Origin: a virus
DNA: 33,419 nucleotides
Direction: 5' to 3' (one strand)
Virus record (IMG/VR): IMGVR_UViG_3300020442_001802
Location: 1-33,419 of that record
The notes beneath the pieces are model-generated. The model was not told where the DNA came from. It saw nothing but the letters and a program-made list of their open reading frames with translations, and searched no databases. The translations under genes were made by a program, and so were the position numbers. Shown one piece after another: positions 107 to 33,419 of the stretch. Position 1 is the first letter of the stretch, and every line of letters begins with the position of its first letter.

Positions 107-134
107 ATTATACAGTCTATATCGTCAAAGTCAA
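107..134 (-). promoter_or_regulatory. Early promoter 1 (TTGACT-16-TATAAT)
   Basis: Read leftward: -35 TTGACT (134-129), 16-bp spacer containing ACGATA, -10 TATAAT (112-107). It drives the partial gene at 1-77 and is one of twelve near-identical cassettes in the left arm. Confidence 0.82.
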
Positions 135-183: not shown

Positions 184-271
184 GACGTAAGTCGTTTGGT
201 GGTAAGGACTTAGGGCGAGCGACCCCCGCCCCGCCGCACCTAAACCCTTACAGCGTAAGGACTTAGGGCGA
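184..271. repeat. Paired-hairpin element copy A (88 bp)
   Basis: This is the first of five copies. Unit 1 is CGTAAGTCGTT, a 7-nt loop, then AAGGACTTAGG. A GC-rich bridge follows, then unit 2, CCTAAACCCTT, a 7-nt loop, AAGGACTTAGG. It lies downstream of the 294-566 gene and behind promoter 1. The outer end of unit 2 is the most diverged of the five copies. Confidence 0.85.
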
Positions 272-293
272 TGAGGAAAAACTTTGAGAAAAT

Positions 294-566
294 CTAGAAA
301 AAACGCTTGACAAGCGAGCCAACAAACGGGATTGCCACCCGCCAGTTTTGCCGTTCCCGGTAGAAGCACCTGAACCCGTCGCGGGTTTGTAGGGTGTCGA
401 TCTTGCGGGTACGTTCAAACTGTGGATCGTCCGCACGATAAGAGCCGGTGATCGTCTTATAACTTAGCGGTTCTTTTTTAGTGTCGCGTTGATCTCGCAA
501 CACACCCCAACGAAACTTAGAACCTTCAACCGGTTGCTTGTAGCTGCACAATACTAAACTTGACAT
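294..566 (-). CDS. Hypothetical protein, 90 aa
   Basis: ATG at 566 with AAAGGT spaced 7 nt upstream. The protein is basic and aromatic-rich: a motif KFRWGVLRD near residue 17, a central stretch rich in Lys/Arg/Asp, and a C-terminal FVGSLVKRFF tail. No transmembrane helix or known motif is recognised. It is separated from the stop of the gp88-family gene by about 94 bp of AT-rich DNA in which I see no convincing promoter, so it may be read through from the promoter at 1449-1476. Paired-hairpin copy A begins 22 bp past its stop. Confidence 0.7.
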   Translation of the reverse strand: MSSLVLCSYKQPVEGSKFRWGVLRDQRDTKKEPLSYKTITGSYRADDPQFERTRKIDTLQTRDGFRCFYRERQNWRVAIPFVGSLVKRFF

Positions 567-659
567 ATTAGTTACCTTTACAATGTTGACTTAAACTGTT
601 AATACATACAAAAATTATTGACAAAATTAAAAATTGTGTCACGCATCACCTCGCCCTTT

Positions 660-1421
660 CTAACTATAGGAAAACTTCACCTTCTCTTTCTTGAGTTGCT
701 TGATTGCTTCCGATGCCTTTGAGCCTTTGGGCTGGACACCGTGAATCAATAGTGCGAATGATTCGTCGCGAATCTCTGGAATCGCTGCGAGTTCGTCAGT
801 GTGGTCAATCTCATAACCTAGTGCTTCCGCTTCGGCTTCCGAGAATACAACCTTGCTTTCGCGAAGATTAAACTCGTCAATCATAAAATCCAAACGACCA
901 CCACGCGAAGCGGTCAAAACTAGATTGTCTGGCAAGCTGTCACGATCTTCTACCCACCACGAAAGTGATTTGGTATAAGCGTAGAACAGTCGGTCGGGAT
1001 ACCATTCTGCGACAAGATGCCACGCTCGAAAATACTTTTGATTGAAAAAATCACCAGCAACGTGAATCCGGCAGATACCAAGATTATCGGGCATAGCGTC
1101 AGCAATAGCACAAGCCATAGAATAGCTAGACTTGAACGAACGCATAGCGTCAAAATTGGCTTTGCGTTTATTGTACGCACTTGGGAATGTTGCCTCTTGT
1201 GATGCAGAGAAACAACGGAACTGGCAATCTTTACCGTCTTGAATCTTGCGACTGTCACCGATCTGGACAACTTTGGATAGGCAATCTTTCGCCATTGGAC
1301 ACGACCAACCAGAGAGAAGGTCGAAGCTGTAAACCTTGCGACGATCTTGCAACCATCGCTCTAATTCTGGAACGTCGTAAAGAGCTTTGAGCTTGGCGTT
1401 TGCATCGCTGAACTTAACCAT
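660..1421 (-). CDS. Phage gp88-family protein (function unknown), 253 aa
   Basis: ATG at 1421 preceded by CGAAAGG (spacing about 7), with a consensus promoter 28 bp further out. The sequence matches what I know of the 'gene product 88' phage family: FDLLSGWSCP (residues 33-42), a Cys quartet C41, C47, C66 and C70, CFSASQE directly after, then IHVAGDFFNQKYF and LFYAYTKSLSWW. The family is common in actinobacterial and other tailed phages and has no assigned role. The clustered cysteines before an alpha/beta-like body suggest a metal or Fe-S site, which is inference. It is the only leftward gene above 150 residues. Family assignment is fairly secure, function is not known. Confidence 0.85.
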   Translation of the reverse strand: MVKFSDANAKLKALYDVPELERWLQDRRKVYSFDLLSGWSCPMAKDCLSKVVQIGDSRKIQDGKDCQFRCFSASQEATFPSAYNKRKANFDAMRSFKSSYSMACAIADAMPDNLGICRIHVAGDFFNQKYFRAWHLVAEWYPDRLFYAYTKSLSWWVEDRDSLPDNLVLTASRGGRLDFMIDEFNLRESKVVFSEAEAEALGYEIDHTDELAAIPEIRDESFALLIHGVQPKGSKASEAIKQLKKEKVKFSYS

Positions 1422-1448
1422 GATAAACCTTTCGTTGGAGTTACCCTT

Positions 1449-1476
1449 ATTATACCATAATCATCGGCAAAGTCAA
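1449..1476 (-). promoter_or_regulatory. Early promoter 2 (TTGACT-16-TATAAT)
   Basis: -35 TTGACT (1476-1471), 16-bp spacer with CCGATGATTATGG, -10 TATAAT (1454-1449). It drives the gp88-family gene 28 bp downstream and possibly 294-566 by read-through. Confidence 0.85.
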
Positions 1477-1497
1477 GGGCTAAACTTTAATTTATTT

Positions 1498-1591
1498 TGG
1501 CGAACCAGAGGGGAATTGCACCCCACGCCCACCTTGGGCTTTAAGCGGATTTGCACCGGCTACCGCTCTAGCGGCTAGGAACATAATTGTA
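1498..1591 (-). ncRNA. Degenerate tRNA-Leu-like sequence ending in CCA
   Basis: Read leftward, the 3' end looks like a class II tRNA. There is an anticodon-like hairpin (1563-1544) with loop TGCAAAT, which would place CAA (Leu), then a long variable-arm hairpin GCCC-AAGGT-GGGC (1539-1527). A T-arm GGGG-TGCAATT-CCCC follows, then CTGGTTC, a discriminator G and an encoded CCA (1500-1498). Against a working tRNA: U33 and U55 are both replaced by G, the D-loop is only 4 nt, and no 5' strand (GAACCAG) pairs with the acceptor end. The 5' limit given is arbitrary. It is probably a decayed tRNA or a tRNA mimic co-transcribed with the RNA at 1597-1728. Confidence 0.4.
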
Positions 1592-1596
1592 CGGGT

Positions 1597-1728
1597 AGAG
1601 GACGGAGGGAGTCGAACCCTCATTCTCTCCAGCACCAAGATTCGCCATAAGGTCACACGCTGCGAAACGTGTAGAAGTTAATCTGAATCCGGGTGTCGCA
1701 ATCTGGAGCCTTGCCAACAAGCGTCCCC
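1597..1728 (-). ncRNA. tRNA-like RNA with ~70-nt anticodon loop
   Basis: The RNA starts about 7 nt after the predicted start site of promoter 3. In order: acceptor strand GGGGACG (1728-1722); small D-arm CTTG-TTGG-CAAG (1721-1710); stem strand CTCCAG (1708-1703); a 70-nt loop holding an inner hairpin ACACG/CGTGT; stem strand CTGGAG (1632-1627); a 5-nt variable region AGAAT; T-arm GAGGG-TTCGACT-CCCTC (1621-1605); and CGTCCTC, which closes the 7-bp acceptor with one G-U pair. Removing about 63 nt from the loop would leave a short tRNA-sized cloverleaf, with T after the A at loop position 32 as U33. CCA is not encoded, and the usual nt 8-9 are absent. It is too short for tmRNA and the insert is too short for a group I intron. 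Confidence 0.5.
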
Positions 1729-1741
1729 GTGTTATACTACC

Positions 1742-1769
1742 ATTATACAATAATTATCGTCAATGTCAA
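1742..1769 (-). promoter_or_regulatory. Early promoter 3 (TTGACA-16-TATAAT), drives RNA
   Basis: -35 TTGACA (1769-1764), 16-bp spacer with ACGATAATTATTG, -10 TATAAT (1747-1742). No protein gene lies between it and the next promoter 265 bp downstream. Its transcript is the tRNA-like region. Confidence 0.87.
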
Positions 1770-1806
1770 GCCCTATCTTGAGATAATTTAAAAGTTTTTT
1801 TTAATT

Positions 1807-1893
1807 GTCGTAAGTCGTTGTCAGATAAGGACTTACGGCGAGCGAGGCCCGCCCCGCCGACCCTAAGTCGTTTGATACCAAGGGTTTACGTTG
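1807..1893. repeat. Paired-hairpin element copy B (87 bp)
   Basis: CGTAAGTCGTT-N7-AAGGACTTACG, GC-rich bridge, CCTAAGTCGTT-N7-AAGGGTTTACG. It lies between a complete intrinsic terminator (1898-1930) and promoter 3, so this copy is not needed to end the upstream operon. Confidence 0.9.
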
Positions 1894-1897
1894 ATTT

Positions 1898-1930
1898 GAA
1901 AAAAGAGAAGCCGCCCCGCTAAGGGCGGCG
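1898..1930 (-). terminator. Intrinsic terminator of the 1963-2517 operon
   Basis: Read leftward: GCCGCCC (1929-1923), 6-nt loop, GGGCGGC (1916-1910), then TTCTCTTTTTT. It sits 33 bp past the stop of the 1963-2166 gene. Confidence 0.85.
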
Positions 1931-1962
1931 TTCTCCCCACAACACGAAAGGTTAGCGAAGTT

Positions 1963-2166
1963 TTACAAGCTCGCTACGCACTTGCTCACGGAGAAACTCT
2001 TGTGAAGTCCGTTTTTCTCACGGACGGTAATGCCACGCCCATTCGGGCCGGTGAAGCTCTTGATCTTAACGCCAGTGACTTGGCGAAGGACGTTCTTCTT
2101 CCCGTTAACTGGGTAAAGGAAAGAAACTTTACGCTCATTGCGTTTAAGGTACAAATCGTTAATCAT
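1963..2166 (-). CDS. Small basic protein, 67 aa
   Basis: ATG at 2166, overlapping the stop of the preceding gene in an ATGA junction, which suggests translational coupling. AAAGGA lies about 8 nt upstream. The protein is basic (many Lys/Arg) and alternates short hydrophobic and charged stretches. Its middle, KIKSFTGPNGRGITVREKNG, looks like beta strands joined by Gly/Asn turns, as in small SH3-like or OB-like nucleic-acid-binding folds; that is inference. Last gene of a three-gene operon, followed by a strong terminator. Confidence 0.75.
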   Translation of the reverse strand: MINDLYLKRNERKVSFLYPVNGKKNVLRQVTGVKIKSFTGPNGRGITVREKNGLHKSFSVSKCVASL

Positions 2167-2306
2167 AGTGCGATCCTTTCGATCTCTGCGTGTGAAACTT
2201 CGTTAACGCTACCGTTAGCGTCAACAACTAAAACGGTGCGACCCTTTATGGCGGTCACGGTTCCAATCGACAATTCGGTGCCGATACCTACAACTGGTTT
2301 ACTCAC
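2163..2306 (-). CDS. Small hypothetical protein, 47-49 aa
   Basis: Two starts are possible: an ATG at 2312 or a GTG at 2306. The Shine-Dalgarno AAAGGAG lies only one base before the ATG but 7 nt before the GTG, so the GTG is preferred. The product, (M)SKPVVGIGTELSIGTVTAI..., is rich in Val/Ile/Gly and looks all-beta, with a KGRTVLVVDANG turn. It overlaps the upstream gene by 8 nt and the downstream gene by 4 nt (ATGA). I do not recognise the family. Confidence 0.72.
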   Translation of the reverse strand: MSKPVVGIGTELSIGTVTAIKGRTVLVVDANGSVNEVSHAEIERIAL

Positions 2307-2517
2307 TCTCATTCTCCTTTGCGAGTTCTGCGGCTGCTTCCGCACGTTCTTTGCGGATACGATCCGCTTTGGTCTTGAGCGTGTCAAACAGATTAAGATA
2401 ATCATCATCGGTCATCTTGATCTGAATCTCGTCACCGTTCTCATCGTTGAACTCCAGCGAGTTCCAGCCGGTGTAAGCTGTGTAAAACTTGGCGGTTACA
2501 GTTTGTTTGACTTGCAT
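2299..2517 (-). CDS. Hypothetical protein with charged helical tail, 72 aa
   Basis: The ATG at 2517 is chosen because AGGAG lies 7 nt upstream; a TTG two codons earlier has no such site. The N-terminal half (VKQTVTAKFYTAYTGWNSLEF) looks like a beta hairpin pair. The C-terminal half, LFDTLKTKADRIRKERAEAA onward, is a long Lys/Arg/Glu helix likely to coil. First gene of the 1963-2517 operon behind promoter 4. No family recognised. Confidence 0.78.
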   Translation of the reverse strand: MQVKQTVTAKFYTAYTGWNSLEFNDENGDEIQIKMTDDDYLNLFDTLKTKADRIRKERAEAAAELAKENESE

Positions 2518-2555
2518 AGTCAATCTCCTAAAAGTGTTGTGAAGTTTACTCTCTC

Positions 2556-2583
2556 ATTATACCATAATTATCGGCAATGTCAA
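2556..2583 (-). promoter_or_regulatory. Early promoter 4 (TTGACA-16-TATAAT)
   Basis: -35 TTGACA (2583-2578), spacer with CCGATAATTATGG, -10 TATAAT (2561-2556). The -35 box contains the TGA stop codon of the upstream gene (2580-2582). Confidence 0.85.
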
Positions 2584-2732
2584 CCGGTAACTTTAGCAAT
2601 TTCCAAAACAATTTCTGCGTCTTTGGCGAGTTCGCTTTTCTTGTCAACGTAAATGCTGCCGGAAACCTCGCCCTTGGCGGTGTAGCGAATCTTGCTCTTG
2701 GTCTCTTTGTCTTTGATGAATTCAACAATCAT
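2580..2732 (-). CDS. Small conserved phage protein (ETK...RY...GSIYV type), 50 aa
   Basis: ATG at 2732 with GGAG 8 nt upstream. The product contains IKDKETKSKIRYTAKG followed by VSGSIYVDKKSEL. This layout (KETK..xRY...G.xYV.K) is one I know from a widespread family of 50-80 residue phage and plasmid proteins of unknown function. The stop codon TGA is embedded in the -35 TTGACA of promoter 4. Its likely promoter is number 5, shared with the gene at 2774-2935. Confidence 0.8.
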   Translation of the reverse strand: MIVEFIKDKETKSKIRYTAKGEVSGSIYVDKKSELAKDAEIVLEIAKVTG

Positions 2733-2773
2733 TTTCTTTTCTCCAATTTTGAGTTTGTTGTGAGCGGGTACGA

Positions 2774-2935
2774 TTACGATTCGTCGCCCGATGTTCCAGT
2801 GTTTGTGCTTTCAGCTTCGCCATCCACGTTCTTGGCTTTGTTTGCTGCTTTAGCTTGTCTGAGCTTCTCGATTTCATTTTGCTGTCTCTCAAATCTTCTT
2901 TTTTCTGCCATGCTTGTGAATATTGTTTCTTTCAT
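2774..2935 (-). CDS. Small charged helical protein, 53 aa (possible leaderless start)
   Basis: The ATG at 2935 lies exactly 6 nt after the TATAAT of promoter 5, so the mRNA would be essentially leaderless. A second in-frame ATG at 2911 (45 aa) has no clear Shine-Dalgarno site. The product is a Lys/Arg/Glu/Gln helix (EKRRFERQQNEIEKLRQAKA) with a Ser/Thr/Asp-rich tail, typical of a short coiled coil. Unrecognised family; which start is used is unsettled. Confidence 0.62.
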   Translation of the reverse strand: MKETIFTSMAEKRRFERQQNEIEKLRQAKAANKAKNVDGEAESTNTGTSGDES

Positions 2936-2941
2936 ACTTCT

Positions 2942-2969
2942 ATTATACCATATCTTTCGTAAATGTCAA
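2942..2969 (-). promoter_or_regulatory. Early promoter 5 (TTGACA-16-TATAAT)
   Basis: -35 TTGACA (2969-2964), 16-bp spacer (the least conserved of the set, TACGAAAGATATGG), -10 TATAAT (2947-2942). Drives 2774-2935 and 2580-2732. Confidence 0.83.
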
Positions 2970-3055
2970 GGGGTAAAATCTTTTTTTCTAAAACTCGCTG
3001 GCTGTACCATATCGCCTTTATCCGGCTTGATAAGCTGAGACAGAGGCCGCATCAT
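2966..3055 (-). CDS. Doubtful 29-codon ORF in an orphan transcript
   Basis: Two adjacent ATGs at 3055/3052 open a frame ending at 2966 in the TGA inside the -35 of promoter 5, the same stop/-35 overlap seen for two other small genes. The peptide is basic (MMRPLSQLIKPDKGD start, SFRKKDF near the end). The only upstream G-rich stretch, GGGA, is too far away to be a good ribosome site. The alternative is that promoter 6 makes a non-coding RNA of about 140 nt; short pairings such as GCGA/TCGC and CTGGC/GCCAG are possible. Confidence 0.3.
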   Translation of the reverse strand: MMRPLSQLIKPDKGDMVQPASFRKKDFTP

Positions 3056-3118
3056 GCACCATATCCCGCAGGACAGTTGGGCCAGACTTACAGTGCGACT
3101 TGTCTCGCTTACTCTATC

Positions 3119-3146
3119 ATTATACTATATTTATCGTCAAAGTCAA
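3119..3146 (-). promoter_or_regulatory. Early promoter 6 (TTGACT-16-TATAAT), orphan
   Basis: -35 TTGACT (3146-3141), spacer with ACGATAAATATAG, -10 TATAAT (3124-3119). Only a doubtful 29-codon ORF or a small RNA lies between it and promoter 5. Confidence 0.83.
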
Positions 3147-3183
3147 GGGGTATCTTCAATCTTTTTCAAACTTTTTTAGAATC

Positions 3184-3270
3184 GTCGTAAGTCGTTAGTA
3201 TCAAAGGACTTAGGTGCCTCGACCCCGCCCCCGCTCGCCCTAAGTCCTTATAGGGCAAGGGGTTACGTCA
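3184..3270. repeat. Paired-hairpin element copy C (87 bp)
   Basis: CGTAAGTCGTT-N7-AAGGACTTAGG, GC-rich bridge, CCTAAGTCCTT-N7-AAGGGGTTACG. Its last three bases (TCA on the plus strand) are the TGA stop codon of the gene at 3268-3549, so coding sequence runs right up to the element. Confidence 0.9.
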
Positions 3271-3549
3271 ATCCGGCAAACGTCCTTCGACGATACCACC
3301 ATGCAGAGCGAATTCACGCTCGAACACTTCGCGGGGAACGTAAGGGTACACGGTGTCGCATGGGTCTTTGAATTCCCCACCTTCCGCATACTCCAGCAAT
3401 TCCTTGCCGGGGATCATAGTGGGGAAGCCGCCTTCCATGTGGGTATGCGGTACGTTATCTTCTCGCGGCAGGCAGTAGCTACTAGAGCGAGCCTGCACGC
3501 TTATTGAGAAACCATCGCGGCAAACAATTCTAGGGTTGAAGGTGTTCAA
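3268..3549 (-). CDS. Conserved phage protein (NPRIVCRDGFS family), 93 aa
   Basis: The start is a TTG at 3549 overlapping the upstream TGA in a TTGA junction; GGAG lies 8 nt before it and there is no nearer ATG. The N-terminus NPRIVCRDGFSISVQA, then YCLPRED, VEGGFP-like HMEGGFPTMIP, LLEYAE, TVYPYVP and a closing ALHGG match a widespread phage family that I know only as conserved hypothetical. It is probably a small alpha/beta protein. The stop lies in paired-hairpin copy C. Third gene of an operon with two very acidic proteins. Confidence 0.8.
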   Translation of the reverse strand: MNTFNPRIVCRDGFSISVQARSSSYCLPREDNVPHTHMEGGFPTMIPGKELLEYAEGGEFKDPCDTVYPYVPREVFEREFALHGGIVEGRLPD

Positions 3550-3713
3550 AACGGGTACTCCAATTCATCAAGTAAATTTTCTAGGTCATCGTCGGCGTGC
3601 TGAGAATCCTCGTCGCCATAAAAATCGTTGTAAAAATCTTCAGCCTCGTGCAAAAGATCCTCATGGTAGTTATCTTCTGCTGGATAAAAATAATTGTCAA
3701 AGTCATCGTACAT
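3546..3713 (-). CDS. Very acidic small protein, 55 aa
   Basis: ATG at 3713 with AGGAG 7 nt upstream. Of 55 residues about 21 are Asp/Glu, none is Lys or Arg, and Tyr/Phe are frequent (MYDDFDNYFYPAEDN; DFYNDFYGDED). Such composition is seen in phage DNA-mimic inhibitors of restriction or nucleases, but composition alone does not prove this. It follows another acidic gene with a 10-bp gap and overlaps the next by 4 bp. Confidence 0.78.
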   Translation of the reverse strand: MYDDFDNYFYPAEDNYHEDLLHEAEDFYNDFYGDEDSQHADDDLENLLDELEYPF

Positions 3714-3723
3714 AGTAAATCTC

Positions 3724-3912
3724 CTACCAAGGGCAATCGGTGTCAAGGTTTTGGAATCCACGGTCGGCATCGGCATCGTAAGCCGCTTCGCCATCGTCGC
3801 CATCGTCGTACCCGATGGAATCGAGATAGTCGAAGTATTCCTGCAAATCTTCCGCAGTCGGAACGTAAACGGCAGGAGTGGTTTCGTCGAAGAGAAAATC
3901 AAGATCGTTCAT
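3724..3912 (-). CDS. Very acidic small protein, 62 aa
   Basis: ATG at 3912 with AAAGG about 8 nt upstream, first gene behind promoter 7. It has about 19 Asp/Glu and a single Arg. A helix-like segment AEDLQEYFDYLDSIG precedes a run DDGDDGEAAYDADAD, and the protein ends DTDCPW. No sequence similarity beyond composition is seen with the acidic protein next to it. Possible DNA mimic or inhibitor; unrecognised. Confidence 0.75.
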   Translation of the reverse strand: MNDLDFLFDETTPAVYVPTAEDLQEYFDYLDSIGYDDGDDGEAAYDADADRGFQNLDTDCPW

Positions 3913-3950
3913 GGTGAACCTTTCAAAAGTGTTGTGACTTGTATGCCTTT

Positions 3951-3978
3951 ATTATACTATAATTATCGGCGTTGTCAA
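3951..3978 (-). promoter_or_regulatory. Early promoter 7 (TTGACA-16-TATAAT)
   Basis: -35 TTGACA (3978-3973), spacer with CCGATAATTATAG, -10 TATAAT (3956-3951). Drives the acidic-protein operon 3912 to 3268. Confidence 0.86.
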
Positions 3979-4074
3979 GTGGTATCGTGAGAAAAAAAGA
4001 AAGTTTTTGGTAATTGAGTGATTTCGACAGAGCTTACCAAACTCCACACCGGCTAGGCCGGGACGGTCGCGGTT

Positions 4075-4284
4075 CTAATCCTCGTCAGATGGGAACATCG
4101 CATCCCAGCATTTTGGACAAATGCCAGAGATGAGAAGCTCACGCTGATCCGCATCAAGCTCAGGTAGAGCGTTGTGGATCAACTCACCTTTTTGCCAAGA
4201 AACGAAACCTTCAAGATCCGCTTGGATCTCGTTTAGCTCGTTGCACTTGACGCAAGGAACCGCAACAACTGCTGTCGTTGACAT
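4075..4284 (-). CDS. Zinc-ribbon phage protein (CPKCWD family), 69 aa
   Basis: ATG at 4284, exactly 6 nt past the TATAAT of promoter 8, so the transcript is predicted leaderless; no Shine-Dalgarno site is available. Two CxxC pairs (C11/C14 and C56/C59) would bind one zinc. Between them is a helical segment with EGFVSWQKGELI and ADQRELLISG. The pattern 'LISG.CPKCWD..F' is familiar from many phage genomes as a small conserved protein of unknown function. A CCGGC-CTA-GCCGG hairpin follows the stop without a T-run. Confidence 0.82.
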   Translation of the reverse strand: MSTTAVVAVPCVKCNELNEIQADLEGFVSWQKGELIHNALPELDADQRELLISGICPKCWDAMFPSDED

Positions 4285-4290
4285 GTTCTT

Positions 4291-4318
4291 ATTATACAAT
4301 ATTAATCGGCATTGTCAA
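4291..4318 (-). promoter_or_regulatory. Early promoter 8 (TTGACA-16-TATAAT)
   Basis: -35 TTGACA (4318-4313), spacer with CCGATTAATATTG, -10 TATAAT (4296-4291). Drives the zinc-ribbon gene with no 5' leader. Confidence 0.86.
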
Positions 4319-4355
4319 GGGCTATCATGAATAAAAATAAAAGTTTTTCCAAATT

Positions 4356-4442
4356 GTCGTAAGTCGTTACTACCAAAGGACTTACGTCGAGCGGGGCCGG
4401 GGCCGGTCGCCCTAAGTCGTTACCAGCAAAGGGTTTACGTCA
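4356..4442. repeat. Paired-hairpin element copy D (87 bp)
   Basis: CGTAAGTCGTT-N7-AAGGACTTACG, bridge rich in GGGGCC, CCTAAGTCGTT-N7-AAGGGTTTACG. The right edge supplies the TGA stop of the tiny ORF at 4440-4502. Confidence 0.9.
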
Positions 4443-4502
4443 ATCTCCGAGAAGTTTCAGTAAAACCCAGATCAAAAAGTTCTCGTGCCATAAATCTTCC
4501 AT
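4440..4502 (-). CDS. Tiny hydrophobic peptide, 20 aa
   Basis: ATG at 4502 preceded by AGGGG at 8 nt, 11 bp after the stop of the upstream gene. The product MEDLWHENFLIWVLLKLLGD has a short hydrophobic stretch that could lie in a membrane. The stop codon is formed by the edge of paired-hairpin copy D. It is supported only by its ribosome site and operon position. Confidence 0.42.
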   Translation of the reverse strand: MEDLWHENFLIWVLLKLLGD

Positions 4503-4513
4503 CTTGTCAACCC

Positions 4514-4753
4514 CTAAACTTGAGAATTTGGCGGAATTAATTCTTGCGGGAAAAATCCGCTGGCGGCGTGTTCGTTTGCACAATGCTGCCGCACACCCAT
4601 AAAAACAGAATCCCGATACGCTTCATCGACCATATCAATATTGTCGAGCATTTCAGACCAATCGCGTGGTAGCTCATAATCGAAACCGCTTTTCACGATT
4701 ACATCAGGGGAGACACCATCGGTCAACATACGAACCATCTTAACTTTCCACAT
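4514..4753 (-). CDS. Hypothetical protein, 79 aa
   Basis: The ATG at 4753 is chosen because GGAGG lies about 9 nt upstream, straddling the stop of the preceding gene; translation is probably coupled. Recognisable stretches are MVRMLTDGVSPDVIVKSGFD, an acidic helix WSEMLDNIDMVDEAYRDSVF and a His/Cys segment VRQHCANEH. No known motif. Second gene of the operon started by the dyad-type promoter at 5203-5234. Confidence 0.75.
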   Translation of the reverse strand: MWKVKMVRMLTDGVSPDVIVKSGFDYELPRDWSEMLDNIDMVDEAYRDSVFMGVRQHCANEHAASGFFPQELIPPNSQV

Positions 4754-4757
4754 AATT

Positions 4758-5174
4758 TTAATCCTCCAAAAGATCGTCTGAGTCAATCAATCCGCCGTTG
4801 ACCATACCGCCAACCAGAGCGGCCATATTTCGGTGCAACTGCAATTCGTCGATTTCGTTCATGCTGTAATCTAGCTCGGAATCAAGATCGACAAAATCGC
4901 CGTGACCGTTGCGAATGGTCTTGGCTTCAACTTGTGCGGCCAGTTTAGCCACGTTGCGAGCTTTTAGCTCTTTGAGTTTGCGGTGTTGGGTGTTGCCGTC
5001 TCGCTCGTCGCATAGTTGCTCAAGACGCTCAAGGGTACGACCGCCACGGGTGTGGTCGTGGAATTCTTCCGGCAGCAGGTGGTTTGGAACCGTGATACAC
5101 TCGCGAATAGCTTTCGCCAATTCGTCGAACATGCGGCCAGTTGCGGGATTGCTCATTTTGCTTTCGTAATTCAT
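4758..5174 (-). CDS. Hypothetical helical protein, 138 aa
   Basis: ATG at 5174 with AAAGG about 8 nt upstream. It is mostly charged helix: FDELAKAIRECITVP near residue 16, then RTLERLEQLCDERDGNTQHR, KLKELKARNVAKLAAQVEAK (likely coiled coil) and an acidic C-terminus ending DSDDLLED. No domain recognised. It is the first gene under the first GTGAC-dyad promoter, so it is probably regulated differently from most of its neighbours. Confidence 0.78.
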   Translation of the reverse strand: MNYESKMSNPATGRMFDELAKAIRECITVPNHLLPEEFHDHTRGGRTLERLEQLCDERDGNTQHRKLKELKARNVAKLAAQVEAKTIRNGHGDFVDLDSELDYSMNEIDELQLHRNMAALVGGMVNGGLIDSDDLLED

Positions 5175-5202
5175 AATTTAACCTTTCGTTTGAGTTACTT
5201 AC

Positions 5203-5234
5203 ATTATACAGATGGCTGTGACACGTTAGGTCAC
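5203..5234 (-). promoter_or_regulatory. Dyad-type promoter 1 (operator at -35, TATAAT)
   Basis: -10 TATAAT (5208-5203). In place of a -35 box there is a 17-bp dyad, GTGAC-ACGTTAG-GTCAC (5218-5234). The same 17 bp recur at 5632-5648 and 6327-6343. Confidence 0.75.
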
Positions 5235-5235
5235 T

Positions 5236-5370
5236 CTATCGGACAATTCCGTGAATTTTGTCCAATTCTTTTCGCTTCTCTTGCTCAGAGATTGTCAACT
5301 CAGCGACCAACTCGATGAGTTGCTCTTTGGTGTAGTGGGCGACTGCTTGCTTGATTTCTTCTTTATTCAT
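5236..5370 (-). CDS. Small helical protein, 44 aa
   Basis: ATG at 5370 with CGAAAGG about 7 nt upstream and promoter 10 just behind. Nearly all helix with heptad-like spacing: EEIKQAVAHYTKEQLIELVA then SEQEKRKELDKIHG. It may be a short dimerising coiled coil. No family recognised. The stop lies 2 bp from the dyad operator of the next promoter. Confidence 0.75.
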   Translation of the reverse strand: MNKEEIKQAVAHYTKEQLIELVAELTISEQEKRKELDKIHGIVR

Positions 5371-5397
5371 GTTTAACCTTTCGTTTGTGTTTCCTCT

Positions 5398-5425
5398 ATT
5401 ATACATAATAATCGTCATTTGTCAA
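5398..5425 (-). promoter_or_regulatory. Early promoter 10 (TTGACA-16-TATAAT)
   Basis: -35 TTGACA (5425-5420), spacer with ACGATTATTATG, -10 TATAAT (5403-5398). The -35 contains the TGA stop of the 5422-5520 gene. Confidence 0.84.
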
Positions 5426-5520
5426 GGGCTATCTTCAAACAAAATAGAATTATTCCAAGAAAAATTGGGACGATGATAAATGACCATAATTCGGTGTTCT
5501 CTGGATTCAACCAATCCATA
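5422..5520 (-). CDS. Tiny protein, 32 aa
   Basis: ATG at 5520 with AGGAG 8 nt upstream, just after the stop of the 23-residue gene. The product starts MDWLNPENTELWSFIIVPIF and ends ILFEDSP. The central WSFIIVPIF is hydrophobic but short for a transmembrane helix. The TGA stop is part of the TTGACA of promoter 10. Unrecognised. Confidence 0.55.
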   Translation of the reverse strand, partial: YGLVESREHRIMVIYHRPNFSWNNSILFEDSP

Positions 5521-5522
5521 AC

Positions 5523-5594
5523 TTATACTCCTGCAACAATACAACCAAGAATCGTGACAATAACCAAAATAATAAACGCTTTTTTCTCTGACAT
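5523..5594 (-). CDS. Tiny membrane peptide, 23 aa
   Basis: ATG at 5594 with a strong AAAGGAG 7-8 nt upstream, first gene behind the second dyad-type promoter. The product, MSEKKAFIILVIVTILGCIV then AGV, is a basic N-terminus followed by one hydrophobic helix, typical of a single-pass membrane peptide. Only two bases separate its stop from the next start. Function unknown. Confidence 0.62.
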   Translation of the reverse strand: MSEKKAFIILVIVTILGCIVAGV

Positions 5595-5615
5595 GTTTTC
5601 TCCTTTGTTACTTAT

Positions 5616-5648
5616 ATTATCGCATCCCGGTGTGACACGTTAGGTCAC
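5616..5648 (-). promoter_or_regulatory. Dyad-type promoter 2 (operator at -35, GATAAT)
   Basis: The 17-bp dyad (5632-5648) is followed after 10 bp by GATAAT (5621-5616). There is no TTGACA-like -35. Drives the two tiny genes at 5594-5422. Confidence 0.72.
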
Positions 5649-5681
5649 AATCACACAACAAAATAAAACTTTTTCGGAATT

Positions 5682-5769
5682 GTCGTAAGTCGTTATGTGG
5701 CAAGGGTTTACGTCGCCGGAAGCCCCCCTCACCGCACCTAAGTCCTTATATAGCAAGGGTTTACGTCGA
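5682..5769. repeat. Paired-hairpin element copy E (88 bp)
   Basis: CGTAAGTCGTT-N7-AAGGGTTTACG, GC-rich bridge, CCTAAGTCCTT-N7-AAGGGTTTACG. Here both 3' arms carry GGGTTTACG, so the units differ less from each other than in other copies. Confidence 0.88.
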
Positions 5770-6310: not shown

Positions 6311-6343
6311 ATTATCGGGTAAGGGTGTGACACGTTAGGTCAC
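6311..6343 (-). promoter_or_regulatory. Dyad-type promoter 3 (operator at -35, GATAAT)
   Basis: The 17-bp dyad (6327-6343) is followed after 10 bp by GATAAT (6316-6311). Spacing is identical to dyad-type promoter 2. Confidence 0.72.
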
Positions 6344-7556: not shown

Positions 7557-7739
7557 ATGACGAACAAAGATAAACCGCAACAGTGTGAGGCGAAAATGTG
7601 CTGTAAGGCTACCGCCCAATTGCAGGCAGAGGTTGTGGACGAGATTTTGAAGGACGACAAGAGCTTGGGCGAGCTTTTGAACAAAAAGGAAACAGATGAT
7701 AATCAAAACGATACTGGGAACGATAGCAGTTCCGGCTAG
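7557..7739 (+). CDS. Hypothetical acidic protein with Cys pairs, 60 aa
   Basis: ATG at 7557 with GGAG 8 nt upstream. Residues 9-16 (QCEAKMCC) hold three cysteines, followed by a helix ATAQLQAEVVDEILKDDKSL and a disordered Asp/Asn/Ser-rich tail. First gene of the rightward operon. The next gene starts inside it, 44 bp before the stop. No family recognised. Confidence 0.7.
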   Translation: MTNKDKPQQCEAKMCCKATAQLQAEVVDEILKDDKSLGELLNKKETDDNQNDTGNDSSSG

Positions 7740-8295
7740 AATCAAAGAAAATGGTATTGCTCTCGGTTGCTGCGGCATGGAAGAAGCGACTGATGACTTA
7801 ATCTGTCAACAATTATCGCAAGGAAACCCTGAACTTTGCGATCTATGTAACTTTGTTGATAAAAAACAATACTTTTTCTTTCAATTTACCACTAAAGATA
7901 ACAACATTACCTATTGTGTTGGACAAATGGGTGATGAGTTTGTTACATACTCGGCCCTCTATTGGTCAGATGGTAAAGAAATCGTCCCTATTCAGCCACG
8001 AGATCTAGACGTAGACGAACCAATTGTCATAAAAAACTGGATTCCTAGTAAATTTGAGACTCCCAACTCGGTAAGAACCTCTTCAGGCGATGCCGTCATA
8101 GAGAATAATCATATTCTTACCTCGATAGACAATAAAATTGTCACTATTTCCATTAATGATCTCAAAAATGAGTATCTTTCTTTTAAACCATTGACCAAAC
8201 GGCCACAAAAACCGAAACAGGGCACTATTTTCTTCAACAAGAACAAAAAATGCCTAGAATGTTACGATGGGCAAACTTGGAGGGCACTATGGTAA
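7696..8295 (+). CDS. Hypothetical protein, 199 aa, possibly virion-associated
   Basis: ATG at 7696 with AAGGA 5 nt upstream, inside the preceding gene. The N-terminus (TILGTIAVPARIKENGIALG) is followed by a Cys-rich stretch with CC at 25-26 and C37, C48 and C51. A beta-rich middle and a C-terminal module GTIFFNKNKKCLECYDGQTW follow. That last module resembles the 'GTIYFN...YDG..W' endings of phage structural and fibre-associated proteins, which is the only hint of role. It overlaps the sigma-like gene by 7 bp. Confidence 0.72.
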   Translation: MIIKTILGTIAVPARIKENGIALGCCGMEEATDDLICQQLSQGNPELCDLCNFVDKKQYFFFQFTTKDNNITYCVGQMGDEFVTYSALYWSDGKEIVPIQPRDLDVDEPIVIKNWIPSKFETPNSVRTSSGDAVIENNHILTSIDNKIVTISINDLKNEYLSFKPLTKRPQKPKQGTIFFNKNKKCLECYDGQTWRALW

Positions 8296-29421: not shown

Positions 29422-32220
29422 ATGTTTAAAATATCAGATAGAGTAAGAGAAACATCGGCATCGACTGGCACCGGTTCAGTTGTGTTTAATGGTTCGTATG
29501 GTGCTTATCAAACATTTGGTACTGGAATTGGAGATGGTAACACTACCTATTACACCATCGAAAACAATGACAGGTGGGAAGTTGGTCAGGGAACCTACAC
29601 CGCAATTTCTAACTCTTTGTCAAGAGATATTGTTTTTGACAGTTCTGCTGGTGGGGCAAAGATAACGCTAGAGGGTATCTCTGTTGTATTCTGCACTTTG
29701 CCTGCAAGCAAGGCTTTTGTGGAAGATGGTTCTGGCGATGTCATTGTTAGCGGTGTTAATGCGAGCAGTGGTGTATTTGACGATCTTTATGTTTACAATA
29801 CTACACAGCTTTATGGCCCACTTCTTGCTAGTGGTGCAAACGTCACAAACAATCTAAACGTTGGTGGAAACCTAGCAGTAAGCGGTAATTTTGATTACAA
29901 TGGAGACCTTATTGTAAATGAAATTATAGCAGATAGTATAGTTTCTAGTGGTTTTCTTACACTGGTAAGACCAAACGGAGATGAAGGTAATTTCTTTCAT
30001 GCGTACAAAGAAGATGGCACAAAGCAGACTCTCTCGCTTCATGTAGACTCAAACATCTCTCCACAATGGAAGCTCGGCCTTAAAACAAATCCAAGTAGCG
30101 AAACTGACCCCCCAACATTTGCATACGTATTTGGTAGAGATGGGCTTGTAGGACTATTATCAAATACAGACAACTATTTAATCCTTTCTGACTCAGTTGG
30201 TTTAACAGCAGTAAATGATTCTCATACTATTTTTACTGTTAGTTCAGATGATGGTGCGTTAATAGATCAACGCTCCACGGTCAATCCTGCACTCACAGTT
30301 CAAGGTGCCCCACTTAATGCGGCAGATTTGCAAGTCTGGGAAAACTCAGTCGGTTCACCTTTATCTGTTGTTGACAGTGGTGGTAAGTTTGGTATCCTAA
30401 ATGGTTCTCCTATCTACGAATTAGATGTAGATGGTAGTGGTAGAATGGAAACCATTACTCTAACAAGCGGTGTCCATTTCCAAGACGGGACTTTCCAGAG
30501 TTCAGCATTTACCGGCACAGACGCATCTGCCGTTAGTGGCTGGGCTGCTCAGACTATTACAAATGGTGATAATGCTGTTAGCGGTTGGGCTTCTTCTACA
30601 TTCCTGACTTCTGATGATGATAGCATAGCTAATTTTGCTTCTGGTTTAGCTGTCCAGAATGAATTAGATATTGTTACTGTTTCTGGGTTACTTGGCGACT
30701 CTGAAGTTGCTAACTTTGCTTCTGGCTTGGCGGTTCAAAACGAAACAGATATAGCAACCGTATCTGGTTTGCTGTATGACGATACTGCTATTTCTGGTTA
30801 CTTCGAGACTAGGGTTGATACTGCTGACTCTCAAATATCTTCTGTTAGTGGTTGGGCCGCTTCTACATTCTTAACATCTGATGACGACAGTATTGCTAAC
30901 TTTGCATCCGGCCTAGCAGTTCAAAACGAAACAGAAATCTCATCTGTCTCTGGGTATTTTGAGACTAGATCAGATACTAATGCTGCTGATATTGTAACGG
31001 TTTCAGGGTTACTAGGCTCTGCCGGATCGACTTCTGGGATAGTATTTGAAAAGTCTGGAAGTAACGATGAATTTAGAATTGGTACAACGTTTATTGATGC
31101 TGATGGAACAGAGCAAGTGGTTAGGGCCACTGACTTTAACGGAGGTTTCTTGAGGCTAGAGGTCGCTAGGTTCAGCCCGTCCGTTTCTGCTGCGGGTCAA
31201 TCAAGAAGCTGGGATCAACCAGTTACTCAGTGGACGGTTACAGTTGACAATCCAACGGACTTCACAACTAACTACGTGAGCGGTGTTAAATCTCCGCTAA
31301 CTGGAATCACTGGTAGTGTCACATCTGATGTCACTCTTTATTCAACATCCGGCCCATCTGTGACTCCGGGTGGCGGCGTTGACTGGACACAAACATTCAG
31401 CACAGACGGAGACTCACCGATTTATTCATCTACAAATAATTTGACTGGTGGATCTGCTAGTGCGACCGTTAGCTTCCTTGATAAGAACCAAGCAACAATA
31501 TCAGAAACAGCGACAATTACCTTCAATTGGTCAAATGCTTCTAACGCCATATCATTTGGAAATTTGAGTGGCAAGAACTTCCTAGAAACATACACATCCA
31601 CAAGCTATAACTTAACAATTAATAATATATCTGACTTGTCAAATACTTCTACTACTATTACCAGTAGCCAAGGTTCGCTCAGTAATAGTAGTGACGATGG
31701 CACGATAACATTTACCACAGCAATTCATAAAGACAACAATAGCGGTAGAACAATTACTGCGACCACAGATTTTACTAGACCTGCAACTGTCACTGGGACA
31801 GAATACACTTCTCAGGATGTTAGTAGTGATAGTAGTATCTCAGCTTCATTTACATATCCAAGTTTCTATATATTTACCGCAAGCACTTCTAATGTGCCGT
31901 CTAGGGCAGATGTTGTTGACACAAATGACTTTGATTCGTCAACAGTGACAGAGCTTGGAAATCAAGCAAAGACTATTGATCAGTACATAAATAATCCTGA
32001 CGGGGTTCCTAAGTGTTGGTGGTTTGGCGTAAGATCTTCTGCTTCTCAACCAACGTCGTTTGAAACTGGTAGTGGCCCATCATTGTTGGTCGGTGCTACC
32101 CCAACAGAGGCAACAGTTGACTTAGAGCCAGACTCACCACCTGCGGGTTATAATTCAGAAGAGTATAAGCTATATGGCATTACTCTTAATCCCGGTAACA
32201 CATACGTAAAGATATCTTAG
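29422..32220 (+). CDS. Fibre protein with internal repeats, 932 aa
   Basis: ATG at 29422 with AGGG 6 nt upstream. The first 105 residues (DRVRETSASTGTGSVVFNGS; YYTIENNDRWEVGQGTYTAI; LSRDIVFDSS) match the N-terminal domain common to many marine phage fibre or collar proteins. A baseplate- or neck-anchoring role is likely. Residues about 365-530 contain repeats of 'SGWA.STFLTSDDDSIANFASGLAVQNE' type alternating with 'VSGLL' and 'SGYFETR'. The C-terminal 400 residues are Ser/Thr-rich beta domains. The repeat unit recurs in the following gene. Confidence 0.8.
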   Translation: MFKISDRVRETSASTGTGSVVFNGSYGAYQTFGTGIGDGNTTYYTIENNDRWEVGQGTYTAISNSLSRDIVFDSSAGGAKITLEGISVVFCTLPASKAFVEDGSGDVIVSGVNASSGVFDDLYVYNTTQLYGPLLASGANVTNNLNVGGNLAVSGNFDYNGDLIVNEIIADSIVSSGFLTLVRPNGDEGNFFHAYKEDGTKQTLSLHVDSNISPQWKLGLKTNPSSETDPPTFAYVFGRDGLVGLLSNTDNYLILSDSVGLTAVNDSHTIFTVSSDDGALIDQRSTVNPALTVQGAPLNAADLQVWENSVGSPLSVVDSGGKFGILNGSPIYELDVDGSGRMETITLTSGVHFQDGTFQSSAFTGTDASAVSGWAAQTITNGDNAVSGWASSTFLTSDDDSIANFASGLAVQNELDIVTVSGLLGDSEVANFASGLAVQNETDIATVSGLLYDDTAISGYFETRVDTADSQISSVSGWAASTFLTSDDDSIANFASGLAVQNETEISSVSGYFETRSDTNAADIVTVSGLLGSAGSTSGIVFEKSGSNDEFRIGTTFIDADGTEQVVRATDFNGGFLRLEVARFSPSVSAAGQSRSWDQPVTQWTVTVDNPTDFTTNYVSGVKSPLTGITGSVTSDVTLYSTSGPSVTPGGGVDWTQTFSTDGDSPIYSSTNNLTGGSASATVSFLDKNQATISETATITFNWSNASNAISFGNLSGKNFLETYTSTSYNLTINNISDLSNTSTTITSSQGSLSNSSDDGTITFTTAIHKDNNSGRTITATTDFTRPATVTGTEYTSQDVSSDSSISASFTYPSFYIFTASTSNVPSRADVVDTNDFDSSTVTELGNQAKTIDQYINNPDGVPKCWWFGVRSSASQPTSFETGSGPSLLVGATPTEATVDLEPDSPPAGYNSEEYKLYGITLNPGNTYVKIS

Positions 32221-32232
32221 GAGATTTAAAGG

Positions 32233-33419
32233 ATGCCCAACTACGATGGATTAGCGAGAAACGCTTGGCCGGGGACTTGGAGTACCAACGGTACACACCC
32301 TATTGTACTAGACGTAGAGCAAAGAGGTGGTCTGCGACTCGTCTCTGGTAGCGGTACGGATACGCTGGTAGGTGTGCCTTCGGGTATGCTTCAAGATGGT
32401 ATGCTTGCTTACGTTGCTAGTGGTTATCATGCAGATGTTTCTACTGGAAAATACTACAAATATTCTGTACTAGCGGGAGAATCTAGAGACAGTAATACGG
32501 GATTTTTACCAAATAATTCAGGAAACTGGAGTGAGTTTACAACTGGTAGCTCTGATGTCGGTGGCGTATCTGGCGTTGCTGATTTTGCATCTGGACTGGC
32601 TGTACAAAACGAAGCGGATATTCTTGTCGTTTCTGGGATTGCAAATGGGGGTTTGTCAAACGTAGTAGAAGATACTACCCCCCAACTTGGCGGTAATTTA
32701 GATGCTCAAAATAATAATATCACTAATGTTTCCAAATTAGATATTCAACCTGCTAATGCCACCGATGTTGGAGTCACTGTTCAGGGTGCTGTATCTCAAA
32801 CCGCGAATTTACAGGAGTGGAAGAACAGTTTAGACGACACTCTTTCTCACGTAGACACAAGCGGTGTTTACACTAATATAGTTGGCACTAGTGGAACTGA
32901 TATCCTTAGAGTACAGTATGGTACGCCACTCCACGATCACGATGGTTCTTCAAACATAGAAGTTACTGGCGTGTGGTTAGACTATGAAGATGGGTCAGAA
33001 TATGCAACACCTATTAATAGTAATTCTTTAGTTATTGGAACTTGGTATAACACCGCTAGAACCATACCAAGTAGGATAAAAATAAGTGCTAATGCATTTA
33101 ATCTTAGTCTAGCCAATAGTCAAAAAATTGACATTCAAGGCACAACAACTAAATTTAATACTGATGTACGACCTTTCACTACGGCAGCTAGGGATCTAGG
33201 TAGCACATCGCTTATTTGGAGAAATCTATACGCCAGCGGTATAACTGTTAGTGGTATAGAATTAACAAACCACGTACCAGCAGATACTACCAATAAGCTA
33301 TACAATGATGATGGAACGCTTAAATTTAATGGTTCAGCAGTTGGTGGTGGAAATAGAACTTACAACAATATTACAGCAGATTTTAGCATGTCTGATACCT
33401 CAGATGTGGTATTCATGGA
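32233..33419 (+). CDS. Fibre protein, 3' end outside window, at least 395 aa
   Basis: ATG at 32233 with AGGAG 9 nt upstream; open to the window edge. It begins MPNYDGLARNAWPGTWSTNG and contains ADFASGLAVQNEADILVVSG, the same repeat as in the preceding fibre. VEDTTPQLGGNLDAQNNNIT follows, a motif frequent in phage fibre shafts, then LGSTSLIWRNLYASGITVSG, another common shaft motif. Virion surface fibre; full length unknown. Confidence 0.8.
   Translation, partial: MPNYDGLARNAWPGTWSTNGTHPIVLDVEQRGGLRLVSGSGTDTLVGVPSGMLQDGMLAYVASGYHADVSTGKYYKYSVLAGESRDSNTGFLPNNSGNWSEFTTGSSDVGGVSGVADFASGLAVQNEADILVVSGIANGGLSNVVEDTTPQLGGNLDAQNNNITNVSKLDIQPANATDVGVTVQGAVSQTANLQEWKNSLDDTLSHVDTSGVYTNIVGTSGTDILRVQYGTPLHDHDGSSNIEVTGVWLDYEDGSEYATPINSNSLVIGTWYNTARTIPSRIKISANAFNLSLANSQKIDIQGTTTKFNTDVRPFTTAARDLGSTSLIWRNLYASGITVSGIELTNHVPADTTNKLYNDDGTLKFNGSAVGGGNRTYNNITADFSMSDTSDVVFM

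Follow-up and report, generated by a model that had tools for sequence, protein, structure and literature searches.

Paired dyads in helical register with promoters of environmental phages and their probable role in transcriptional control

The window analyzed here is a 33,419-bp virus fragment (IMG/VR record IMGVR_UViG_3300020442_001802), with small leftward genes at its left side and rightward structural genes (terminase, head protease) at its right side. It carries five copies of an 88-bp element in which two dyads flank a GC-rich core. The rotational position of these dyads relative to a promoter lying on one side of them is strongly constrained across a family of related elements, and the dyads are under selection as DNA sequence, not as RNA stems. 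The dyads lie whole helical turns upstream of promoters, which makes control of transcription the probable role of the element, rather than that of a structured RNA. The explanation we favor, and hold with good though not full confidence, is that it comprises tandem operators at which a putative dimeric regulator would bind and, from a constant helical face, act on RNA polymerase.

Helical register and conservation of the dyads

A strict scan of the window found exactly ten 25-bp dyads, starting at positions 188, 241, 1811, 1864, 3188, 3241, 4360, 4413, 5686, and 5739. Nine fitted TAARYCSTT-N7-AASGRYTTA perfectly and one carried a single mismatch, while the same scan of 100 shuffled versions of the window returned no dyads. 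The offset between the two dyads was 53 bp in all five copies, and the 7-nt centers of the ten dyads all differed from one another. An earlier, sequence-only reading of this DNA had reported five copies in the same orientation, each separating the end of one leftward operon from the promoter that comes next and each with loops of constant 7-nt length, and these observations were borne out. Across 200 retrieved loci the strict motif had a 7-nt center 211 times and any other center of 0 to 15 nt not once, many of these loci having been retrieved with a 7-nt-center pattern. Copies 1 to 4 stand in front of a leftward promoter of the form TTGACA/T-N16-TATAAT, and copy 5 in front of a GATAAT box that has no TTGACA box (Table 1).

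The family contains 356 non-redundant elements from 130 loci, nearly all of them on environmental phage contigs, and many of the loci were collected using the motif itself. The single-dyad pattern matched more than 120 stretches of viral contigs among the matches listed. Pair offsets were 53 bp in 363 cases, 52 bp in 23, 50 bp in 22, and 41 to 42 bp in 20; those of 53, 52, and 41 to 42 bp are close to whole helical turns. In large records the elements were gathered in one cluster per genome, such as 13 pairs inside 162 to 180 kb of a 230.7-kb record and 5 pairs inside 26 to 36 kb of a 173.8-kb record. Up to about 15 copies occurred per genome, in records reaching about 240 kb, and the cluster coincides with an array of small, variable, mostly unshared genes. 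BLAST searches with the left arm, single elements, and consensus elements against 50,697 phage records gave no meaningful match, and at the sensitivity tried the family was absent from isolated phages. Among bacterial and archaeal genome contigs, the paired pattern matched 56 stretches, and the real motif was present only in L208, L214, L216/L229, L231, and L241; the remaining stretches were rejected as chance matches in AT-rich or tandem-repeat sequence. L208, L214, L216, L231, and L241 are short contigs of bacterial metagenome-assembled genomes and appear to be mis-binned phage DNA.

Promoters were called by similarity to the sigma70-like consensus within 120 bp of each element. A promoter was found on exactly one side of 249 of the 356 elements and on both sides of 7, compared with 10.8% per side at random places, and all promoter-assigned elements within a genome pointed one way. 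Measured from the proximal dyad, the gap to the −35 hexamer peaked at 20, 30 to 31, 41, 51 to 52, and 62 bp, one helical turn apart, so that distances to the promoter changed in steps of about 10.5 bp. The Rayleigh z value at 10.5 bp was 88 (n = 201 promoters; best-fitting period, 10.7), with displaced controls below 4. In all, 186 elements were oriented by their promoter, and 125 were kept after clustering at 75% identity; z was 55 with these 125 non-redundant elements and did not fall below 23 when each of 70 loci contributed a single element. When each locus was given a random shift, z never rose above 13.5, compared with an observed value of 54. Among cases of equal length, the sequence separating element and promoter was only 42 to 49% identical, and both the offset-52 elements and single dyads had a phase identical to that of the main set.

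The positions TAA...TT and AA...TTA were almost invariant in the 125 oriented elements, and conservation reached past the arms and also into the GC-rich bridge. The sequence-only reading had described two hairpins per copy joined by such a bridge, selected either for structure or as a dimeric binding site. The ten dyads and the bridge are present, but the arms are not clean stems: TAAGTCGTT facing AAGG leaves a G.G mismatch, and AAGGGTTTA facing TAAGTC gives a G.T and a T.G (A.C on the other strand). At variable positions, pairing with the opposite arm fell below that of shuffled arms in the distal dyad (0.30 versus 0.44, 0.37 versus 0.49, and 0.50 versus 0.55), as did Watson-Crick pairing at a variable position of the proximal dyad (0.49 versus 0.57). 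The highest mutual information was between neighboring positions inside one half-site (AC versus GT), and dyads carrying GT in both half-sites were essentially absent. Relatives showed conserved half-sites instead of compensatory base-pair changes. Helical phasing, near-whole-turn pair offsets, and these anti-compensatory changes strongly support the binding-site half of the earlier claim, while the half concerning structure did not stand.

Several further sequences were noted in the same promoter regions. GCCGATA is conserved in the spacer between the −35 and −10 boxes of leftward promoters (window 1742–1769, 2556–2583, 4291–4318, and others, and in relatives), whether or not the element is present, and is perhaps a further operator. 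A second dyad, GTGACACGTTAGGTCAC, has three identical copies in the window (5218–5234, 5632–5648, and 6327–6343; 0.69 matches expected at one mismatch), located at leftward promoter regions that have no TTGACA box; it is probably the operator of a second regulator.

Table 1. Copies of the element and associated features in the window
Feature	Position	Strand	Details
Element copy 1	184..271	-	Proximal dyad 188-212, GC-rich bridge 213-240, distal dyad 241-265; gap to -35, 53 bp
Copy 1 leftward promoter	107..134	-	TTGACT-N16-TATAAT
Element copy 2	1807..1893	-	Proximal dyad 1811-1835, bridge 1836-1863, distal dyad 1864-1888; gap, 41 bp
Copy 2 leftward promoter	1742..1769	-	TTGACA-N16-TATAAT
Intrinsic-terminator-like hairpin	1910..1929	-	Separate, ahead of copy 2
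Element copy 3	3184..3270	-	Proximal dyad 3188-3212, bridge 3213-3240, distal dyad 3241-3265; gap, 41 bp
Copy 3 leftward promoter	3119..3146	-	TTGACT-N16-TATAAT
Element copy 4	4356..4442	-	Proximal dyad 4360-4384, bridge 4385-4412, distal dyad 4413-4437; gap, 41 bp
Copy 4 leftward promoter	4291..4318	-	TTGACA-N16-TATAAT
Element copy 5	5682..5769	-	Proximal dyad 5686-5710, bridge 5711-5738, distal dyad 5739-5763
Copy 5 putative -10 box	5616..5621	-	GATAAT; 64 bp from dyad, counted by hand from the sequence (63 bp in copies 2-4); GTGACACGTTAGGTCAC dyad just upstream

Two observations concern genes of the window. The gene at 660–1421 (−), which adjoins an element, matched the Pfam family GP88 (E value, 1.6e−32), and a GP88/DUF7227-like family is recurrent in the arrays of relatives. 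Four diverged 75-nt repeats (30612–30953 and 32562–32636) lie within two consecutive large genes of the structural region, which suggests repeated protein segments, possibly of a fiber.

A putative dimeric regulator

A DNA-bound protein would impose rotational phasing with a promoter if it had to touch RNA polymerase or loop to it. Each 88-bp copy would accordingly serve as a DNA regulatory site in which about five helical turns (53 bp) separate two tandem dyads on either side of the GC-rich core. A dimeric DNA-binding protein, phage or host encoded, may occupy the dyads, so that two dimers would share one face of the DNA, with the core perhaps wrapped or bent. In most dyads one or both half-sites are of the AC type, which would be expected of a dimer anchored by a single strong half-site. 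From this side of the helix the bound protein would contact sigma or the alpha C-terminal domain of RNA polymerase, with the center of the proximal dyad at roughly −68, −79, −89, −100, or −110. It is predicted to modulate some, about 30%, of the strong promoters in the variable small-gene array. Near-consensus host-type boxes and the position of these promoters suggest that they act early. Both the regulator protein and the direction of regulation are inferred here, and activation and repression of strong promoters in the manner of phi29 p4 appear about equally likely. Promoters with an element were as close to consensus as others (mean matches, 5.71 and 5.40 with an element versus 5.77 and 5.30 without), so a need for activation is not obvious, and repression of the p4 type is as plausible.

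Several results weigh against a regulator of this kind. The need for activation is not evident from element promoters that are no weaker than element-free ones, and about 28% of elements had no promoter call. The offset-50 clade (22 pairs) does not lie at whole turns, and no sigma70-like promoter was called for it; these elements sit ahead of promoters of another type that the sigma70-like scan did not call. G003, an apparently complete relative with a terminase 85% identical, has no elements and has retained the promoters. No gene family was restricted to element-bearing genomes when gene-family profiles were compared with element presence, and among the array gene families none was near-universal and none was recognized as a DNA-binding regulator. 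The binder may be host encoded or too divergent to group.

In the terminase tree, element presence and absence switched at least three times, some of the absences resting on short upstream sequence. The symmetry of the GC-rich core about the element center was weak and mixed. Elements of the offset-50 clade have a very GC-rich core, for example at 310, 1283, and 2681 of L425 (G022), among others. In G003 itself, several leftward promoters are preceded upstream by a different GC-rich repeat, CCCGGCCGGG...CCCGG (for example, 7873–7916 and 9609–9652 of L266, which is G003 100,001–120,000).

Two sigma-like proteins, one weakly similar to sigma region 2 and the other to region 4, are widely shared (window 7696–8295 [+]; L287:82–756 [−]; L264:18673–19140 [−]) and bring to mind the split late sigma factor of phage T4 (gp55/gp33). 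Their wide distribution includes the element-less G003, and neither is a specific candidate for the binder. About 30 of 95 arrays contain a family of small proteins (L336:8508–8882 [+]) that resembles, by eye, the C-terminal domain of ribosomal protein L7/L12.

The analysis defines a cis-regulatory element repeated across a large uncultured lineage of environmental phages. It marks the genomic array that holds the variable accessory genes of these phages and predicts a DNA-binding regulator. Metagenomic sequence by itself is enough to reveal helical phasing, which distinguishes a dyad bound by protein from an RNA hairpin ahead of any experiment.

Cassette exchange, termination, and RNA structure

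Tandem operators could also have a second function. In a dual-purpose nucleoprotein module, a new type of phage protein would wrap the dyads and the GC-rich core and set the transcription of each cassette through helical contact with RNA polymerase, and the element would also be the preferred joint for the exchange of promoter-gene cassettes between phages. We think this unlikely, although, if true, it would amount to an integron-like platform for accessory genes without an integron integrase.

The element might instead be in the first place a recombination site, with promoter-gene cassettes swapped there either through a site-specific recombinase or through homologous recombination in the manner of PeSL cassettes (see below); we judge this to be a slim chance. 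The conserved arms flank a variable center of fixed length, as do the arms of tyrosine-recombinase core sites, and the gene units bounded by elements are highly variable. Alignment ends were also enriched near elements: 23.0% lay within 20 bp of one, versus 6.3% for random points, in all DNA alignments between relatives, and 14.2% versus 5.5% in alignments of at least 90% identity. This enrichment is modest, however, and biased, because alignments run through any conserved repeat and some excess is expected there. No tyrosine recombinase (PF00589) was found in 12 records, a search that left serine recombinases outside its scope, whereas all 14 control genomes were positive. Neither the one-way facing of the elements nor their phasing to promoters is needed by recombination. 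A joint that shuffles cassettes, as proposed in the sequence-only reading, thus retains weak support as a by-product, through the alignment ends; a side role in cassette exchange is possible, and the breakpoint data allow a PeSL-like one. Nothing was found in support of a transposon origin, with no tyrosine recombinase in those 12 records and no search made for transposases.

It is very improbable that the element acts as a terminator or transcriptional insulator ending the upstream operon, which had also been put forward from the sequence. Its location between a gene end and the next promoter and its GC-rich core would suit such a function, and the GC-rich repeat of G003 occupies a comparable position, where T-runs on the operon strand come after some of its copies. 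However, no sense-strand intrinsic terminator ended in or just past the element in any of 168 oriented cases, 9 of which have one upstream. Copy 2 is preceded by a separate terminator of its own, so the element is not required as one there, and helical phasing has no role in termination.

Least probable of all is a structured RNA with two conserved hairpins in a transcript (a riboregulator, processing site, or small RNA). Such an RNA would fit the inverted repeats, whose center is always 7 nt long, and the folds that beat shuffles in copies 1 to 3 (z of about −2.3 to −3.1), but arm pairing below the shuffled level already largely refutes it, the minimum-energy structures of the five window copies differ with none in common, z is about 0 on both strands of copy 5, Rfam gave no match at gathering scores and sub-threshold chance matches only, and phasing to a promoter is not expected of RNA. 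The sequence-only reading had itself named arm changes without compensation in relatives as grounds for abandoning this possibility.

Comparison with known systems

The nearest described architecture is the p4 region of phi29. The p4 regions at promoters A2c/A2b and A3 each contain two imperfect inverted repeats, every one an independent site for a dimer, and p4, together with p6, bends the DNA into a hairpin, activates the late promoter A3, and holds back the RNA polymerase complex at the early promoter A2c from isomerizing (PMC3100819). Both systems place paired inverted repeats with pseudo-symmetric half-sites upstream of promoters. The p4 sites differ in having the form CTTTTT-N15-AAAATG with A-tract readout and in being confined to one region of one genome, whereas the element reaches about 15 copies per genome, has a GC-rich core, and shows its helical phasing in the sequences.

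Class I CRP-dependent promoters have sites centered at −61.5, −71.5, −82.5, and −92.5 (PMC11894529). There, as here, a dyad lies upstream of a sigma70 promoter at distances that change by about one helical turn; the element differs in its motif and register, in its paired dyads, and in having promoters that are already near consensus. The Fis-bound upstream activating sequences of rRNA promoters resemble the element in that several protein sites upstream of a strong promoter share one helical face. Fis sites are AT-rich and degenerate, in contrast to the strict motif and GC-rich core found here.

PeSLs, which are promoter/stem-loop cassettes known from T4-like phages, and the HGTV-1 motif (as cited in PMC4503421 and PMC3950731) are also repeated cassettes of a promoter and an inverted repeat before variable small genes, with a proposed part in gene shuffling. 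Judged as a PeSL, the element has the adjoining promoter and lacks the stem-loop terminator. In their titles, PeSLs are promoter-terminator composites, whereas the dyads of the element are neither RNA stems nor terminators and are set apart by occurring in pairs at a fixed 53 bp that are phased to the promoter.

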